DNA of 61,579 nucleotides from Deltaproteobacteria bacterium (GCA_018266075.1 JAFEBB010000045.1:1-61579); one strand, 5' to 3'; counted from the first letter of the stretch, positions 49,713 to 56,587 are shown. Translations and numbers: made by a program. The notes: generated by a model not told the origin, from the sequence alone.

Positions 49713-51200
49713 TCACGGCGGCGCGTCGGGCGGGCATCGGCCGGAGCGCGGTGCACAGTAGCTCTCGTAGGTTTGAGGCAGGCCCGTCTTCGGGTCCGCA
49801 CAGAGGAAGATGGGATCGGCCTCGTTCTCCACCAGGAACTTGTCGCAGACCGAGCCGTCGCCGGCGATGGCGCAGGCCTGGGTGCCGCCCGAGGAGCAGT
49901 CGTGCAACGTGGCCCCGCAGTCGAACTCGCTGGGGCAGTCGCTCTCGGTGTTGCAGTGCGTGCCACAGAAGGTGGTGATCTGCCCCTCCTGGATGAACTG
50001 CAGGCACGAGCCCGAGCAGGTGTTCGCGTCGCAGGGCGACTCGCAGAGCGAGTTGTCCACCGCCGCGCAGCACTCGCCCGCCGGACACGCGCCGCCGTTG
50101 GGATCGTTCGGGCCGCAGTACTCGCCGGTGGGGCAGTAGTCGTTCGCGGCGCACACGCTCTGGCAGGTGCCGGTGCTGTCGTTGCCATTGATGACGCAGG
50201 TGAGCGGCAATTCGCAGTCGGAATCGCTCCGGCAGCCCGGCACGCAGGAGGCCGAGTTCGCGTCCACGATCTGGTTGTACGGACAGTTCGCGTCCATCAC
50301 CGCCGGGCCGTTCACCAAGCAGGTGGAGCTGAAGATGTCGCAGAACGTGCCCACCGGGCAGTCGGAATTGTCGGTGCAGTTCTTGAGCGACTGGCAGAAG
50401 CCCAGCGCGTTGCAGAACTGGTCGGCCGAGCAGCCGCCCGTGCCCGGCGGCCCGGGGACGCACTGACAGGTGCCGTTGTTGCAGACCAGATTTCCGCAGG
50501 CGGCGTCGCTCTGGCAGGTGCACTTCTGCAACGTGGGATCGAGCGCGAAGCCGGGCGGGCAGCAGGCGTTGCCGTTGCACACGCAGCCATTCACCGCGGG
50601 ATCGAAGCGGTAGTCGGCGGGGCAGCACGCGTCCTTGGCGCAGACGCAGGCCTGCTGCAGGTCGTCCCACTTGTAGTCGATGGGGCAGCAGGAGGTGTCG
50701 GTGCAGGCGCAGGCGCCGAACTCGCCGCCGCCGTCGGGCGAGGGCGGCGGGAGGCCGGCGTCGTCGGTGCCGGCGTCGCGGGCCACGAAGACGAAGCCCT
50801 GCGGACAGCATTGCTCGCCCTTGCAGGCGCAGTGCTGGGTGTCCGCGTCGAAGGCGAAGCCCTCGGGGCAGCAGTCGGAGGCGGCGCAGGCGCAGTCGCC
50901 CGAGGGCGCGTCGTAGCGGAAGTGGTACGGGCAGCAGACATCGTCCGCGCAGGTGCACGCGCCGCCGTCGCCGTCCCAGTGGAAGCCGACCGGGCAGCAG
51001 GCGTCGCCGTTGCACACGCAGACGCCGCTCTTGCACACCATGTCCACCGGGCAGCCCTGGTCGCTGTTGCAGAGGCAGCGGTCGCCGATGGGATCGAAGC
51101 CGTCGGGGCACGCGGGCGCAATGTCGGTGCGCGCGCAGCCCGCGGCGAAGAGGGAGAGTCCGAGCGCCACGAGCGCCAGCTGTCGCATGGGCGTCCTCAT
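49713..51200 (-). CDS. Cys-rich lipoprotein with 21-residue CxCx4CCP repeats
   Basis: 495 aa from ATG 51200. Lipobox AAGC (Cys22). Seven repeat units start with CxC-x4-CCP at residues 61, 82, 103, 124, 164, 185 and 206. The spacing is exactly 21 except for a 19-residue Asp/Gly/Pro insertion before the fifth. Each unit has CCP-x-x-[FY] then D. A different Cys-rich region (about 228-430) with EGF-like or knottin-like spacing follows. The many Cys imply extensive disulfides or metal binding. It is coupled by ATGA to the VWA lipoprotein gene upstream. No family is recognised. Confidence 0.8.
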   Translation of the reverse strand: MRTPMRQLALVALGLSLFAAGCARTDIAPACPDGFDPIGDRCLCNSDQGCPVDMVCKSGVCVCNGDACCPVGFHWDGDGGACTCADDVCCPYHFRYDAPSGDCACAASDCCPEGFAFDADTQHCACKGEQCCPQGFVFVARDAGTDDAGLPPPSPDGGGEFGACACTDTSCCPIDYKWDDLQQACVCAKDACCPADYRFDPAVNGCVCNGNACCPPGFALDPTLQKCTCQSDAACGNLVCNNGTCQCVPGPPGTGGCSADQFCNALGFCQSLKNCTDNSDCPVGTFCDIFSSTCLVNGPAVMDANCPYNQIVDANSASCVPGCRSDSDCELPLTCVINGNDSTGTCQSVCAANDYCPTGEYCGPNDPNGGACPAGECCAAVDNSLCESPCDANTCSGSCLQFIQEGQITTFCGTHCNTESDCPSEFDCGATLHDCSSGGTQACAIAGDGSVCDKFLVENEADPIFLCADPKTGLPQTYESYCAPRSGRCPPDAPP

Positions 51201-52291
51201 GGCGAACCGATGGCGTAGGAGATCTGGATGTTGGCCTTGGGCGGCGGCACGTAGCTGCCCAGGAACTCGATGGCGTTGGCCGAGGCCACGTAGGTCCAGC
51301 CCGTGTTCGGGTCGCGGGGGATGACCTGGCCGTTCACCATCACCACGATGGTCGACGCGTCCGCGTTGAGCGAGAGCGGGAAGACCTTGCGCAGCGTGTT
51401 CAGCGCCTCGGCGATCTGGATGAGCGTGTCCTGGAAGCTGGTGTCGCAGATGGAGCCCACCACGCCGCCCGTGTCGCGGGCCATGGTGGTGAAGCGGACG
51501 GCCGCGTCGGCGCGCGAGCCGTAGTACTGCGCGTCGATGGCCGGCTGGCAGCCCGTAGGCAGGTCGCCGGAGATGGTGGAGAAGCTCACCGTGTTCTCGT
51601 TGCCCTGGCCCTTCACCTCGCGCAGGTAGCGCGCGTAGTAGCCCACCGGGCCCAGGCTCTCGTCGTCGCCGTCGGACACGGCGATCACCGCCAGCGCCGC
51701 GTTGGGCCGGAGAAAGCTCGAGCTCAGGCTGGGCGTGGAGAGGAACTTCTTCATCATCGCCAGGCCGTCCACCCACTTCACGCGGCTGGCGGTGGGGAAC
51801 TCGAGCTGGTTGCCGAAGTCGCCGGCCAGGTCGGTCGCGGGGGTGCTGTTGTCGATGATGAGCGTGCCGCCGTCGCCGGAGTGCAGCTTGGCGCCGTCGT
51901 CGCGGTCGGTGGAGATGACCGCGATGCGGAAGTCGGTGTTGCTCTGCGAGAGCGTGTCGATGAACGACTGGAAGTTCCCGTTCAGCTCCGTGCGCTGGTC
52001 GTGCATGGAGCCGGAGTTGTCGATGAGCCAGAGGATGTCCACCACGCCCGGCTTCTGCTTGTAGGTGTCGGTCTGCACCGCGGGCACGGCCTGCGGGTTC
52101 TTGAGCACCACGCGCACCACTTCGGAGCGGTCCATGGAGTCGGGCTGGATGTGGACCTGCTCGAGCGGGGGCGGCTCGACCACGGGCTTCACCGGGTCGC
52201 CGCCGTAGCCGCCGCCGGCGGAGTCGGAGCAGGCGCCGAGCGCGGCGATGGCGAGCGCAGCCCCGAGGGTTCGGATGCGAAGCACGGACAT
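51197..52291 (-). CDS. VWA-domain lipoprotein
   Basis: 364 aa. Signal peptide with lipobox LGAC (Cys21). The von Willebrand factor A domain (about 85-320) has the MIDAS start DNSGSM at 91-96 and downstream acidic SDGDDE. Surface VWA domains bind partner proteins via a divalent ion. It is coupled to the CCP-repeat gene; an interaction is likely but unproven. Confidence 0.88.
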   Translation of the reverse strand: MSVLRIRTLGAALAIAALGACSDSAGGGYGGDPVKPVVEPPPLEQVHIQPDSMDRSEVVRVVLKNPQAVPAVQTDTYKQKPGVVDILWLIDNSGSMHDQRTELNGNFQSFIDTLSQSNTDFRIAVISTDRDDGAKLHSGDGGTLIIDNSTPATDLAGDFGNQLEFPTASRVKWVDGLAMMKKFLSTPSLSSSFLRPNAALAVIAVSDGDDESLGPVGYYARYLREVKGQGNENTVSFSTISGDLPTGCQPAIDAQYYGSRADAAVRFTTMARDTGGVVGSICDTSFQDTLIQIAEALNTLRKVFPLSLNADASTIVVMVNGQVIPRDPNTGWTYVASANAIEFLGSYVPPPKANIQISYAIGSP

Positions 52292-52526
52292 TCTCCAGCC
52301 GGCCGGTGAGGAGGAGGCGAACCTAGCACCGCGACCCGGACGCGGCCACTCGGGTTGATCGCAAGTTCTCGATAGCAGGCTTCAGGCTCCGGGACGCAGG
52401 CTTCGGCCGTTGAGCAGGGGTGCAGTTGAGCGCTCGATGACATTCACACCGCGTTCCTACGAAAAACTGAAGCGGCAGAGCCGGAAGCGGGTGGCCCGAA
52501 AAAAGATCTGCTAGCGTCGCGGCCGC

Positions 52527-53846
52527 ATGCGTGGCGCGCGCTGGACCATGGCCATTCTCCCGCTCGCCGTCGCGGCGATGGCGGGCGGCTGCAACTGCGG
52601 CAAGACGCCGCCTCCCACCCCGATCACCCTGGTCGCCACCAACGACCTCGACTTCGACATCTTCGTTCCCGACGAGTCCGGCCAGGGCGGGCTCACCGTG
52701 GGCCACCAGTCGGGGACGGACTTCGCGCCGGTGCCCGAGAAGCCCGCGTGTCCGTGCCTGGAGTGCGACCAGGCCTGCAACTTCGAGATCTGCCAGTGCG
52801 CGCCCACGCCCATGGCGCACCGGATCCGCCCGGGGCAGAGCTTCACCCGGACGTTCGATGGCAACCAGCACCCTGCGAGCCGCGCGAGCTGCGGCGCGGG
52901 AGACCTGGGTCCGGTGTGCTTCCTCGCGGGCGAGCCCATCGAGACGGACAACTACGATCTGCAGCTCTGCTTCGCGACCGACGTCACCGGCTCGAGCGCT
53001 GGCACCGACGACTTCCCGGCCACGTTCGACTCGGGCTCGCTCACCTGCCTCACCAAGACGTTTGCGTACCCGGGCCAGACCACCTGGACCATCGCGCCCA
53101 CGCCGCCGCCGCCGTGCGGTGCGGGGAATGCGTGCCCGTCGGGTCAGCTCTGCCAGCACGGCGTCTGCAGCGCCAACTGCCTCGCCAATAACGTGCCCAG
53201 CATCGGCTCCAGCTGGGACGTGACGGTGAACATCGTCGACGACGAGGGCTTCTTCACGCGGCAAGCGGGCACCTCGCCGGTGCGCTACACGGGCACGGGG
53301 CAGGTGGGCGCGTCGAGCTTCAGCCAGGGCGCGCTCTTCTTGCCGCTGGCGCGCGCGGAGGGCGCAGGCGAGGTGGTGGGGAGCATCTCGGTGCAGCTGC
53401 CGAGCACCATCACCTCGGTGCCCTTCATCGCCTCGGAGACGGTGTCGCTGATGGTGATCTCGCAGAACAACGACCCGGCCTCGCCCGCCGGGATCGTGAT
53501 TCGCGACGCGAGCGGCAACCTCATCCTGGCCGCGGAGCTGGACACCGGCACGCGGGTGCTCACCGACACGGACACCGCGCCGGTGACCGTGAACGGCAAC
53601 GGGACGGCGTTCGCGTGCACGCAGTCGGATGTGTGCGGTCGCTCGCTGGACACCACCGTGCTCTTCGGCGGCGGCAACGCGCAGGTCGAGGTCGAGGACG
53701 GCAAGAGCGGGCCGGTGACCATCGGCACCACCACCTACGACGCCACCGCGGTGGCCAACTTCGCCGGGCCCGCGAGCGCGCCCGCGGAGGTCTGCGCGCC
53801 CACGACGGCGTTCGGTTACGCGATCCTGGCGCGGCGCAATCTCTAG
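52527..53846 (+). CDS. Lipoprotein with Cys-rich and beta-rich regions
   Basis: 439 aa. Signal peptide and lipobox AGGC. The first third has Cys pairs (CPCLECDQACNFEICQC) and a short EGF-like piece (CGAGNACPSGQLCQHGVC). The rest is beta-rich and ends GYAILARRNL. No family is recognised. ATG 52527 or 52548 may be the start. Confidence 0.72.
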   Translation: MRGARWTMAILPLAVAAMAGGCNCGKTPPPTPITLVATNDLDFDIFVPDESGQGGLTVGHQSGTDFAPVPEKPACPCLECDQACNFEICQCAPTPMAHRIRPGQSFTRTFDGNQHPASRASCGAGDLGPVCFLAGEPIETDNYDLQLCFATDVTGSSAGTDDFPATFDSGSLTCLTKTFAYPGQTTWTIAPTPPPPCGAGNACPSGQLCQHGVCSANCLANNVPSIGSSWDVTVNIVDDEGFFTRQAGTSPVRYTGTGQVGASSFSQGALFLPLARAEGAGEVVGSISVQLPSTITSVPFIASETVSLMVISQNNDPASPAGIVIRDASGNLILAAELDTGTRVLTDTDTAPVTVNGNGTAFACTQSDVCGRSLDTTVLFGGGNAQVEVEDGKSGPVTIGTTTYDATAVANFAGPASAPAEVCAPTTAFGYAILARRNL

Positions 53847-53856
53847 CCGCAGTCGA

Positions 53857-55290
53857 TCAAGGACCGGCGTACACGAGCACCGGCCAGAGGCACTTGGACT
53901 GCGCGGTGCTGGTGGCGCCCTGCGGCGCCGAGATGACCGCGAACGCGCCCGTGAACGGCCCGAGGTCCGGCGTGCGCAGCAGGGTCACGTCGACGTTCAG
54001 GTGATCACCATTGGCGCCGCTGAGGATCGCGGGGTTGAAGCTGAAGCCCGCGTCCTCGCCGAAGGCCGTGGCCACGTCGTACGGAATCGCGTTCCACGCC
54101 GGCATCGGCGCGTCGCTCCAGCTGTCGAGCTCCACGGTCGTCGTCTGGCCCACGCTCATCTTCAAAGCCTTGAACGGCGGCAGGCCCGAGAAGGGAATGT
54201 TGATCGTGGAGAGCACCGGCGCCGAGCAGAAGAACGGACCGGCGTCAGGAAGAATCGGCAAGCACGGGTCGTGCGACGCCGCCGCCGAGCTGTTCGACCA
54301 GAGCCGCTGCACCTCGGCGCCGATCTCCGTGTCGAAGTACTGCGCGTCGGGCCGCAGCTCGCAGAGGTCGCCGATCTCGCCGCCGGCCACGCTCCAGGCG
54401 AAGTCCTCGGGGGCCACGGTGAGGTAGCCGGCGTCGTCCTGGTACGGGTCGCTCGCGGCCTCGCCGAACTCGTGGCTCGCGGTGCTGGTGGTGTCGTCGA
54501 GCGCGCTCGCGCCCGTGCCGGCGCAGCGCGGGACCACCGCGTAGGCCACGTGCGTGCCGCCGTCGAGGACCACGTAGCCGTGGTAGCCGCCGATGGCCCC
54601 GCCCAGCGAGCCCTGCGCGCAGAGGGTGTTGCTCTGGTAGGTGATGGTCGTGCCCGCCGGGAAGAAGAAGCTGTAGATGGAGTCGCTCGGCGGCCCGCCC
54701 CAGCCGCCGTCGTCGGCGCTCAGGTTGGAGACGAGCCACTTCTGGATGTCGGTGTCGTCGAACGTCGAGCCGCCGTCGCCGGGGCCGGTGCCCACGGCCA
54801 ATTCCACCGGCGCGCCCGCGGACGCGGGCCCCACGCCGTACTCGGGCAGCGCGGCCGCCCAGTAGCTCGAGCCGCCGATGTTCTCCACGAAGGCCTCGAG
54901 CTGGGCGCGAAGCGGGTCGCCGTCGAAGGTGACGGCGGTGATGGTCGGCGAAGTGAGCACCGGGCCGTGGTTGGGGTTCTGCACCTGCGGCATGGGCGGG
55001 TGCTGGGCGATCACGAAGCCCGCGTCGTTGCCGGTGGAGCCGCTGGAGCCGGTCGAGGCGCCCGTGCCCGTGGATGCGCTGGTCCCGCTCGAGCCGCTCG
55101 AGGCATTGGCGCCCGTGGAGCCGGTGGTGTCGGTGCCCGAGCTGCCGCCGGTGCCTGACGACGTCGTGGTGCTGGTGGTCGAGCCGGTGGCGCCGGTCGC
55201 GCCGGTGCTGCTGCCGGAGGAGCCGGACTTGTTGCTGCTGCACGCGAAGCACAGCGCAGCGAGGATCGCGACGCGGTAGGAGCTCTTCAT
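53857..55290 (-). CDS. HExxE lipoprotein, Exordium-like pattern (paralogue B)
   Basis: 477 aa. Signal and lipobox-like FAC (Cys17). Residues 18-88 are a Ser/Thr/Gly linker. Core: YWAAALPEYGVGPAS, SHEFGEAASDPYQD (272-285) and GGEIGDLC (303-310), then RLWSNSSAAASHDPCLP. The same motifs in the same order occur in paralogue A at 30.6-31.8 kb, but the linkers differ. HExxE with the later acidic residues suggests metal binding. Confidence 0.78.
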   Translation of the reverse strand: MKSSYRVAILAALCFACSSNKSGSSGSSTGATGATGSTTSTTTSSGTGGSSGTDTTGSTGANASSGSSGTSASTGTGASTGSSGSTGNDAGFVIAQHPPMPQVQNPNHGPVLTSPTITAVTFDGDPLRAQLEAFVENIGGSSYWAAALPEYGVGPASAGAPVELAVGTGPGDGGSTFDDTDIQKWLVSNLSADDGGWGGPPSDSIYSFFFPAGTTITYQSNTLCAQGSLGGAIGGYHGYVVLDGGTHVAYAVVPRCAGTGASALDDTTSTASHEFGEAASDPYQDDAGYLTVAPEDFAWSVAGGEIGDLCELRPDAQYFDTEIGAEVQRLWSNSSAAASHDPCLPILPDAGPFFCSAPVLSTINIPFSGLPPFKALKMSVGQTTTVELDSWSDAPMPAWNAIPYDVATAFGEDAGFSFNPAILSGANGDHLNVDVTLLRTPDLGPFTGAFAVISAPQGATSTAQSKCLWPVLVYAGP

Positions 55291-55411
55291 GGGGCCGGGC
55301 CTTGTCAGAAGGCGGGCACTCTACGGAACTCGGCCTGCCGGAACCAAGCGCAGGTTTTCGGAAATTGCAGATTGCCGCGGCGTAGGATCGCGACACGACC
55401 CGCGAGGGGCC

Positions 55412-56587
55412 ATGCGCCGAACGCACTGGACGCTCTTCTTGATGATGCTGGGGATGCCGCTCTCGGCGCGCGCGGCGTCGGTGACGCTCGCGTGGGATCC
55501 GGAGGCCGTGGACGGCTTTCGCGTCTACTACGGGCTCTCCACGGCATACGACGGCACCGAGGCAGTTCAGGGGCCTTCACCGATCATGCTGCCCAGCAGC
55601 TCGCTGGCAGATCCGAACAACCCCAGCTTCGTGCTCGACGGCTTGAGCTCGTGCAGCCACGTGTACTTCGCGCTCACCGCGTACAACAACGACGGCGACG
55701 GCGGCATCCTCGAGAGCGCGCTCTCCAACCAGGTGGACATCACCGTGGTGCAGAAGCCGCTCAACGTGGTCGCGAGCTCGAGCGCGCCCGGCACCATCAC
55801 GCTCACCTGGGATCCCCAGCCCGCCAACGACCACGGCGCCATCGACACCTTCAACGTGCACTACGGCACCAGCGACGTCGATGCCGGCACCGCGTCGGTC
55901 CCCGTCGACGGCAGCGGCGCCAATGAAGGACCGTCTCCCGTCAGCTTCCCCGCGAGCAGCCTCGCGGATCCCAACGCGCCCAGCACCTCGCTCACCGGGC
56001 TCGCCGATGGCACGTACTTCCTGGACGTCGAATCCGCGTGCAACGACGGCGCGACGCGACACTCGCCGGAGAGCATGGTCGTCGTCGGCCAGGGCACGAC
56101 CACCACGACCACCTCGACGACCACGTCGAGCAGCGGCTCCGGCTCGAGCAGCACCTCGTCGTCCGGCTCGGGGAGCACCGGCGCATCGACGGCGGGCAGC
56201 ACCAGCTCCGCCGCGTCCACGACGACGGGGAGCTCGTCGTCCTCCAGTTCGAGCAGCGCGAGCTCCACGGGAACCACCGGCACGCACGGCACGTCGAGCG
56301 GCAGCACCTCCTCGACGACCACGGCCGGAAGCAGCACGGGCACGCACGGCTCCGGCTCGACGTCGGGCACCAGCGGCTCCACCGGCGAGGCGACTACCAT
56401 CGGCGCCAGCTCCAGCTCGGGCAGCATCGGCGGCAGCGGCGCGGCCTCCACCAGCGCGGGAAGCGGCTCGGTGCCGAAGGAGATCGAGGGCGGCTGCGGC
56501 TGCGGGACGACGAGCGAGCTGGCGCCGGTTGCGCTCCTGCTGGCGGCGCTGGTGCACGTGCGTCGGCGGAAGCTCAGCTCACCTTGA
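55412..56587 (+). CDS. Fibronectin-like surface protein with MYXO-CTERM-type tail
   Basis: 391 aa from ATG 55412. Signal peptide ends ARA. Two fibronectin-type-III-like domains (about 22-130 and 131-225) with similar LSS/LTG...YF segments. Residues about 230-355 are a Ser/Thr/Gly linker. The tail has GGCGCG, a hydrophobic helix and RRRK, the pattern of MYXO-CTERM sorting signals. It should be displayed on the cell surface. The last 14 bp overlap the convergent GreA-like gene. Confidence 0.82.
   Translation: MRRTHWTLFLMMLGMPLSARAASVTLAWDPEAVDGFRVYYGLSTAYDGTEAVQGPSPIMLPSSSLADPNNPSFVLDGLSSCSHVYFALTAYNNDGDGGILESALSNQVDITVVQKPLNVVASSSAPGTITLTWDPQPANDHGAIDTFNVHYGTSDVDAGTASVPVDGSGANEGPSPVSFPASSLADPNAPSTSLTGLADGTYFLDVESACNDGATRHSPESMVVVGQGTTTTTTSTTTSSSGSGSSSTSSSGSGSTGASTAGSTSSAASTTTGSSSSSSSSSASSTGTTGTHGTSSGSTSSTTTAGSSTGTHGSGSTSGTSGSTGEATTIGASSSSGSIGGSGAASTSAGSGSVPKEIEGGCGCGTTSELAPVALLLAALVHVRRRKLSSP

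Follow-up and report, generated by a model that had tools for sequence, protein, structure and literature searches.

Two kinds of described protein resemble the products of the gene pair reported here. On the cysteine-rich side, the TIGR04201 repeat is defined from TraA, whose Cys repeats have been proposed to form a rigid stalk (PMC3325183). On the side of the VWA domain, Bd0875, a MIDAS lipoprotein on the cell surface, is required for the invasion of prey (PMC11003981), and CglB is a surface lipoprotein adhesin (PMC12288465). By analogy with these precedents, a role in envelope contact is plausible for two overlapping lipoprotein genes on a 61,579-nucleotide stretch of DNA from a Deltaproteobacteria bacterium (GCA_018266075.1, JAFEBB010000045.1), hereafter the window. 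The gene pair is real and conserved, and it is undescribed in the open literature searched, in which no paper on it was found. PADLOC gave no match on the window; the pair is therefore not a known defence system. No relative was found on viral contigs.

The downstream gene encodes a Cys-rich lipoprotein of 495 residues on the minus strand (49713..51200, stop codon included), and its start codon is supported because the four-base overlap with the VWA gene is conserved. The translated N-terminus, MRTPMRQLALVALGLSLFAAGC22, contains a signal peptide (residues 1-21, 51138..51200, minus strand), followed by the lipobox cysteine Cys22 (LFAAG-C), which aligns across the orthologues. The protein contains 73 cysteines in total. 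A flanking unit of another pattern, CxC-x5-CP-x4-C, occupies residues 42-60 (51021..51077, minus strand), and the same pattern recurs at residue 227 on the other side of the array. Between them, seven units of the pattern CxCx4CCPx2[FY] start at residues 61, 82, 103, 124, 164, 185, and 206, all on the minus strand: unit 1 (residues 61-81, 50958..51020) begins CVCNGDACCPVGF..., unit 2 (residues 82-102, 50895..50957) begins CTCADDVCCPYHF..., unit 3 (residues 103-123, 50832..50894) begins CACAASDCCPEGF..., unit 4 (residues 124-163, 50712..50831) begins CACKGEQCCPQGF..., unit 5 (residues 164-184, 50649..50711) begins CACTDTSCCPIDY..., unit 6 (residues 185-205, 50586..50648) begins CVCAKDACCPADY..., and unit 7 (residues 206-226, 50523..50585) begins CVCNGNACCPPGF....

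The units are spaced by exactly 21 residues, except between residues 124 and 164, where a 19-residue Asp/Gly/Pro-rich insertion lies in the loop of unit 4 before unit 5. The earlier note had read the seven units, their period, and the single insertion correctly, as the translation confirms; shuffling the mature protein 20,000 times produced at most two units and no pair at a spacing of 21. The C-terminal half (residues 227-495, 49716..50522, minus strand) consists of TIGR04201/Dickkopf_N-like units and a conserved tail, CAPRSGxCP; the hairpin repeats run on through most of it, and it remains Cys-rich to its end. Since the protein is Cys-rich throughout, with flanking units and later repeats, the seven units are its regular core. 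Three antisense open reading frames over this gene, at 49810-50139, 50167-50466, and 50680-50916 on the plus strand, were judged to be shadow frames of the Cys-rich coding strand.

The upstream gene encodes a VWA-domain lipoprotein of 364 residues (51197..52291, minus strand), with a lipobox cysteine at Cys21, a VWA domain at about residues 82-300, and a β-rich C-terminus. Pfam VWA_2 matches it at 20.2 bits (E 9.3e-4), below the gathering score of 27 bits, and further VWA-containing models match the same region. The MIDAS motif DxSxS is located at residues 91-95 (DNSGS; 52007..52021, minus strand), and D91, S93, and S95 are accompanied by the downstream D209/D210. The start of the Cys-rich gene and the stop of the VWA gene share an ATGA (51197..51200, minus strand), so that the coupling of the array gene to a MIDAS VWA lipoprotein gene, proposed in the earlier note, stands.

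The models nearest to the window VWA protein are those of the Bdellovibrio MIDAS adhesin and the gliding lipoprotein CglD; these and the CglB model are all matched below their cut-offs: 42.8 bits for the Bd0875-type NF052240 (equivalog cut-off 700), 41.7 bits for NF033765 (CglD, cut-off 400), and 12.2 bits for NF033757 (CglB, cut-off 200). A search of PDB chains with its sequence returned antibody noise only. Like Bd0875, the window VWA protein is a lipoprotein of similar length with a single VWA domain carrying DxSxS; in contrast to Bd0875, its partner gene encodes a Cys-rich, putatively rod-like protein, and some of its orthologues are devoid of the MIDAS Asp. CglB and CglD are likewise VWA lipoproteins of myxobacteria, but Myxococcus-type genomes have VWA paralogues of about 1000 residues and are without this pair.

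The association of the two genes is strict. In all 28 named loci, and also in those from other Myxococcota classes, the gene immediately upstream on the same strand is the VWA gene, and the four-base overlap is given by the closest start in 20 of the 27 measurable orthologous loci and is possible in 22 of the 27. An orthologue profile of the VWA protein (E ≤ 1e-155) recovers exactly those genomes, 16 among 99 relatives, that possess the full-length Cys-rich protein, and the next VWA matches in these relatives drop to paralogues at about 1e-58. Co-occurrence with the VWA gene, named in the earlier note as a point to check, is thus found in every locus examined. The pairwise distances of the two proteins correlate with r = 0.96 over 378 pairs, which mainly reflects shared vertical descent.

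Upstream of the pair, an intergenic region (52292..52526, no strand assigned), in which both promoters presumably lie, separates it from a divergent gene, F1 (52527..53846, plus strand), an arrangement kept in 24 of 28 orthologous loci. F1 encodes a lipoprotein of 439 residues with Cys clusters of its own, and no known domain was found in it. In many relatives, a Ser/Thr kinase gene follows F1; it is absent from that position in the window. Four loci (L056, L057, L059, and L061) contain the two-gene core without F1 and the kinase. Farther along the window, at 55289-56587 on the plus strand, a protein with a long Ser/Thr/Gly-rich linker has a C-terminus (CGC, a hydrophobic stretch, and RRRK) that by eye resembles a MYXO-CTERM sorting signal.

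Because the genes are always together and the length of the chain never changes, the pair probably represents one cell-envelope contact device. We give about an even chance to the reading in which a disulfide-stapled rod and a MIDAS VWA lipoprotein act in an envelope contact or adhesion complex. The overlapping genes would encode a dedicated pair of envelope lipoproteins, and the Cys-rich partner would consist of small disulfide-stapled hairpins in a row. The seven CxCx4CCP units, with a variant unit at each end, would form a stiff stalk of fixed length near the lipid anchor, holding the Cys-rich, Dickkopf-like half, which is more varied, at a distance from the membrane. The VWA partner, with a lipid anchor of its own, would present an adhesion domain of the MIDAS type. 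The stalk would set the reach and bear the load, and the target would be bound by the VWA domain, the C-terminal half, or both.

Alternatively, the VWA protein could reside in the inner membrane or the periplasm, where it would aid the assembly or quality control of a Cys-rich outer-membrane lipoprotein or provide a link to it across the envelope, with no direct part in adhesion. In E. coli, Asp at position +2 of a lipoprotein retains it in the inner membrane. The VWA orthologues (L035-L062) carry Asp at +2 in 22 of 26 cases, whereas the Cys-rich partners carry Ser, Ala, or Gly at this position in all 28; given these unlike residues, the two proteins may be sorted differently. The complete mutual dependence of the two genes is also in keeping with such an arrangement, as is family f9 (L030, L031, and L032), in which the MIDAS of the VWA partner has lost D91 to Ser and S93 to Ala (VSNAG replaces VDDSG) and all three loci nevertheless retain the gene pair and the seven units. 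MIDAS-dependent binding is therefore not universal. However, the window VWA protein itself has Ser at +2, the remaining orthologues have Asn, Val, Pro, or Arg, DxSxS is intact in 25 of 28 orthologues, and D209/D210 are present in all 28. Moreover, inner-membrane lipoproteins of M. xanthus are enriched in Lys rather than Asp at +2, and type II-exported surface lipoproteins such as PulA also carry Asp +2 (PMC3222651). An intra-envelope role appears rather unlikely to us. The surface complex suggested by the earlier note is plausible, but its generality is weakened by the Asp +2 of most VWA orthologues and by f9; because of this Asp +2, surface exposure is kept here as a prediction.

Concerning the array itself, the full-length Cys-rich protein is found in 16 of 99 relatives of the same order, including the window genome, and the others are 43-46% identical to the window protein. 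A scan of bacteria and archaea with one genome per species, which relies on two seed patterns and may let distant homologues escape, yielded 28 loci with a full-length homologue. All of these come from metagenome-assembled genomes, and with few exceptions the genomes bear the label Myxococcales, Myxococcaceae, Archangium, or Deltaproteobacteria. The search of other genomes for the repeat, proposed in the earlier note, was made with a degenerate DNA pattern of two tandem units. It matched 38 of 195 Myxococcota genomes, and the 3-6 matches in each of them are consistent with one array per genome. Among these are genomes from other orders and classes (G163, G164, G112, and G116), which also have seven units; in three of the four, one of the seven has CC without the following Pro. 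The pair is absent from Myxococcus- and Corallococcus-like genera among the 99 relatives searched, and it is therefore not required for myxobacterial life in general.

All of the approximately 36 homologues that were read contain seven units. Outside Cys and Pro, units at the same position are 0.32-0.46 identical across species, against 0.18 for units at different positions, whether these are compared between species or inside a single protein. When a unit is matched to the array of another species, its closest counterpart occupies the same position in 65% of cases, compared with 14% by chance. The units are thus positionally orthologous, and the array of seven is therefore ancestral and has been neither homogenised nor resized. 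Loop insertions occur, in unit 4 of the window protein and in units 3 and 4 of L040, and none adds or removes a unit. A recent repeat expansion was considered and ruled out, as the units cluster by position across species.

Relations to known repeats are confined to other parts of the protein or to a common register. No Pfam or NCBIfam model covers the seven-unit array. TIGR04201 matches the window protein in the C-terminal half alone (residues 274-288, 15.3-15.4 bits, below the cut-off of 25 bits), and at E ≤ 1 it matches 23 of 29 orthologues, the best at 3.4e-5. Dickkopf_N (PF04706; gathering cut-off 25 bits) does not match the window protein and matches 22 of 29 orthologues weakly at E ≤ 0.1, the best at 2.6e-4. 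A profile of the CCP unit aligns with TIGR04201-type units over 20 columns without a gap (HMM-HMM probability 67, E 5e-5), and C-x-x-D-x-C-P-x-G and the closing Cys coincide in this alignment. The second-strand Cys of TIGR04201 (C-P-x-G-x-x-C) is absent from the array units, which instead have a Cys at position 8; among 194 array units, position 15 is mostly aromatic (Y/F/W) and Cys is never among its common residues. A common origin is supported but not proven, because the alignment is short and driven by Cys, and the TIGR04201-type profile used for comparison draws most of its units from a single position in the C-terminal half. The CCP unit therefore looks like a variant of the TIGR04201/Dickkopf-like unit with one Cys moved, rather than an unrelated family, as judged from sequence comparison.

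The likeness to TIGR04201 and TraA includes a myxobacterial host, export, tandem Cys hairpin units of about 22 residues, and the common register C-x-x-D-x-C-P-x-G...C. In contrast, the array unit forms a CC with its Cys at position 8 and has an aromatic residue in place of one Cys of the TIGR04201-type unit, and the protein has a strict period of 21, a lipid anchor, and a VWA partner but no PA14 domain or MYXO-CTERM. The earlier note had called the pattern one of no known family, which holds for the array in that no model covers it; it does not hold for the register of the unit or for the C-terminal half, which belongs to a wider family of myxobacterial Cys-rich lipoproteins.

On these grounds, the protein might be an ordinary TIGR04201/Dickkopf-like Cys-rich surface protein of myxobacteria, its CCP units being a drifted local copy with no special role. 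The gapless alignment and the weak matches of both models in 22-23 of 29 orthologues, including that in the C-terminal half of the window protein, agree with this, as does the presence of shorter paralogues without the array in VWA-containing operons. Yet the Cys pattern is identical in seven units across distant classes, with no unit gained or lost, which drift does not explain, and we consider this explanation quite unlikely.

The preferred reading of a disulfide-stapled rod agrees with the predicted structure. With 29 input sequences, the AlphaFold2 model of the whole Cys-rich protein has a mean pLDDT of 79.8 and a pTM of 0.45, and most of the array exceeds a pLDDT of 90; within the array, only the insertion loop of unit 4 is low. 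The array alone, from an orthologue without the interruption, reaches a pLDDT of 93.4 and a pTM of 0.62. Each unit is modelled as a hairpin of a strand, a short helix, and a strand. The local hairpin is thus confidently predicted, and the relative placement of the units moderately so (pTM 0.62), for which reason the stiffness of the rod is something that we infer. Not counting the lipid Cys, 25 of 29 orthologues have 72 cysteines, three have 74 or 76, and one has 71; the even number in 28 of 29 and the gain in pairs fit full disulfide pairing. The disulfide-rich spacer suggested earlier agrees with both the models and the even counts.

Foldseek against the PDB gave no match at E ≤ 1e-3 for the whole protein or the array alone, so that this search yielded no match of the repeat to an established domain, which the earlier note had named as a refutation; a search of PDB chains with the Cys-rich sequence also gave no match. 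A second look with VIA gave best Z scores of 3.6 (Draxin, in the C-terminal part) and 3.1 (adenovirus fibre shaft, in the array), which are too weak to name any fold. The likeness to Dickkopf_N and Draxin therefore consists of the weak orthologue matches and this best second-look match in the C-terminal half, but the seven-unit array has no such matches, and the Z score is far too low for a claim of fold. We also take granulin- and EGF-type disulfide ladders to resemble the array in their CC pairs, CPxGY-like motif, and stacked hairpins. Such a granulin-like ladder was suggested by eye and found no support: Pfam gave no family on the window Cys-rich protein at E ≤ 10, granulin and EGF included, and neither Foldseek (none at E ≤ 1e-3) nor VIA (Z ≤ 3.1 for the array) supports the fold.

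CxC and CC pairs occur in metal-binding proteins, and at such a high Cys density the residues might be free thiols that capture metal ions, as the earlier note had also considered; however, metal capture is rejected as highly improbable because the protein is exported and its cysteines are conserved, with an even total in 28 of 29 orthologues and gains by twos (72, 74, 76), while the confidently predicted hairpin fold gives them a structural spacing and no metal-transport genes were seen in the conserved neighbourhood of the pair.

The number of units in tandem repeat proteins usually changes by gain and loss. In this family, seven units are kept across different classes of a phylum while each has drifted to approximately 40% identity, so that the length itself is a testable trait, and the combination of a fixed count with an obligate VWA partner is unusual and directly testable. 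A bolder proposal, which we advance tentatively and regard as doubtful, is that the array is a disulfide-stapled rod of a kind not described before, and that selection acts on its length as that of a molecular ruler or a force-bearing stalk. The rod would belong to a contact complex in which it is obligately joined by the VWA lipoprotein; this complex would be ancestral in Myxococcota and would exist alongside the CglB/Glt and TraA systems as a distinct one. The strict pairing of the array protein with a MIDAS VWA lipoprotein offers a compact two-gene system for studying how myxobacteria touch surfaces and neighbours. Furthermore, the relocation of one Cys from the TIGR04201-type to the CCP unit would be a clean case of rewiring in a disulfide-bonded repeat.

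A related operon accompanies the pair in the wider group. Several Myxococcota genomes contain a separate lipoprotein operon composed of a VWA protein (about 370 residues), a Cys-rich protein with a pre-peptidase C-terminal domain (about 500 residues), a TIG-repeat protein (about 1050 residues), and a short Cys-rich lipoprotein (about 390 residues). The last of these matches residues 216-432 of the window protein and is without CCP units. At E ≤ 1e-15, matches to its family are found in 20 of 60 relatives; of these matches, the weakest two or three are to the full-length protein or a fragment. The existence of this operon makes the combination of a VWA protein and a Cys-rich lipoprotein a recurring theme, of which the window pair is the compact, array-bearing form. 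The operon was seen at L070:990-9530, in the genome of the window itself (G000:C14), and at L071, L072, L073, L074, and L075, the full set of four members not being confirmed in each of these loci.

In a genome with two VWA/Cys pairs (G112), one pair is a hybrid: the Cys-rich protein of L103 (G112:C3:112279-113391) combines a few CxC...CC units with the tail found in the shorter paralogue family, and a VWA gene lies upstream of it. Near the paralogous operon in three genomes, genes at L070:14128-15981, L073:2726-3910, and L075:10393-12387 encode what by eye look like secretion ATPases of the CpaF/TadA type (SLRAFLKP..EIMINGP), and a link between this operon and a Tad-type pilus is possible.
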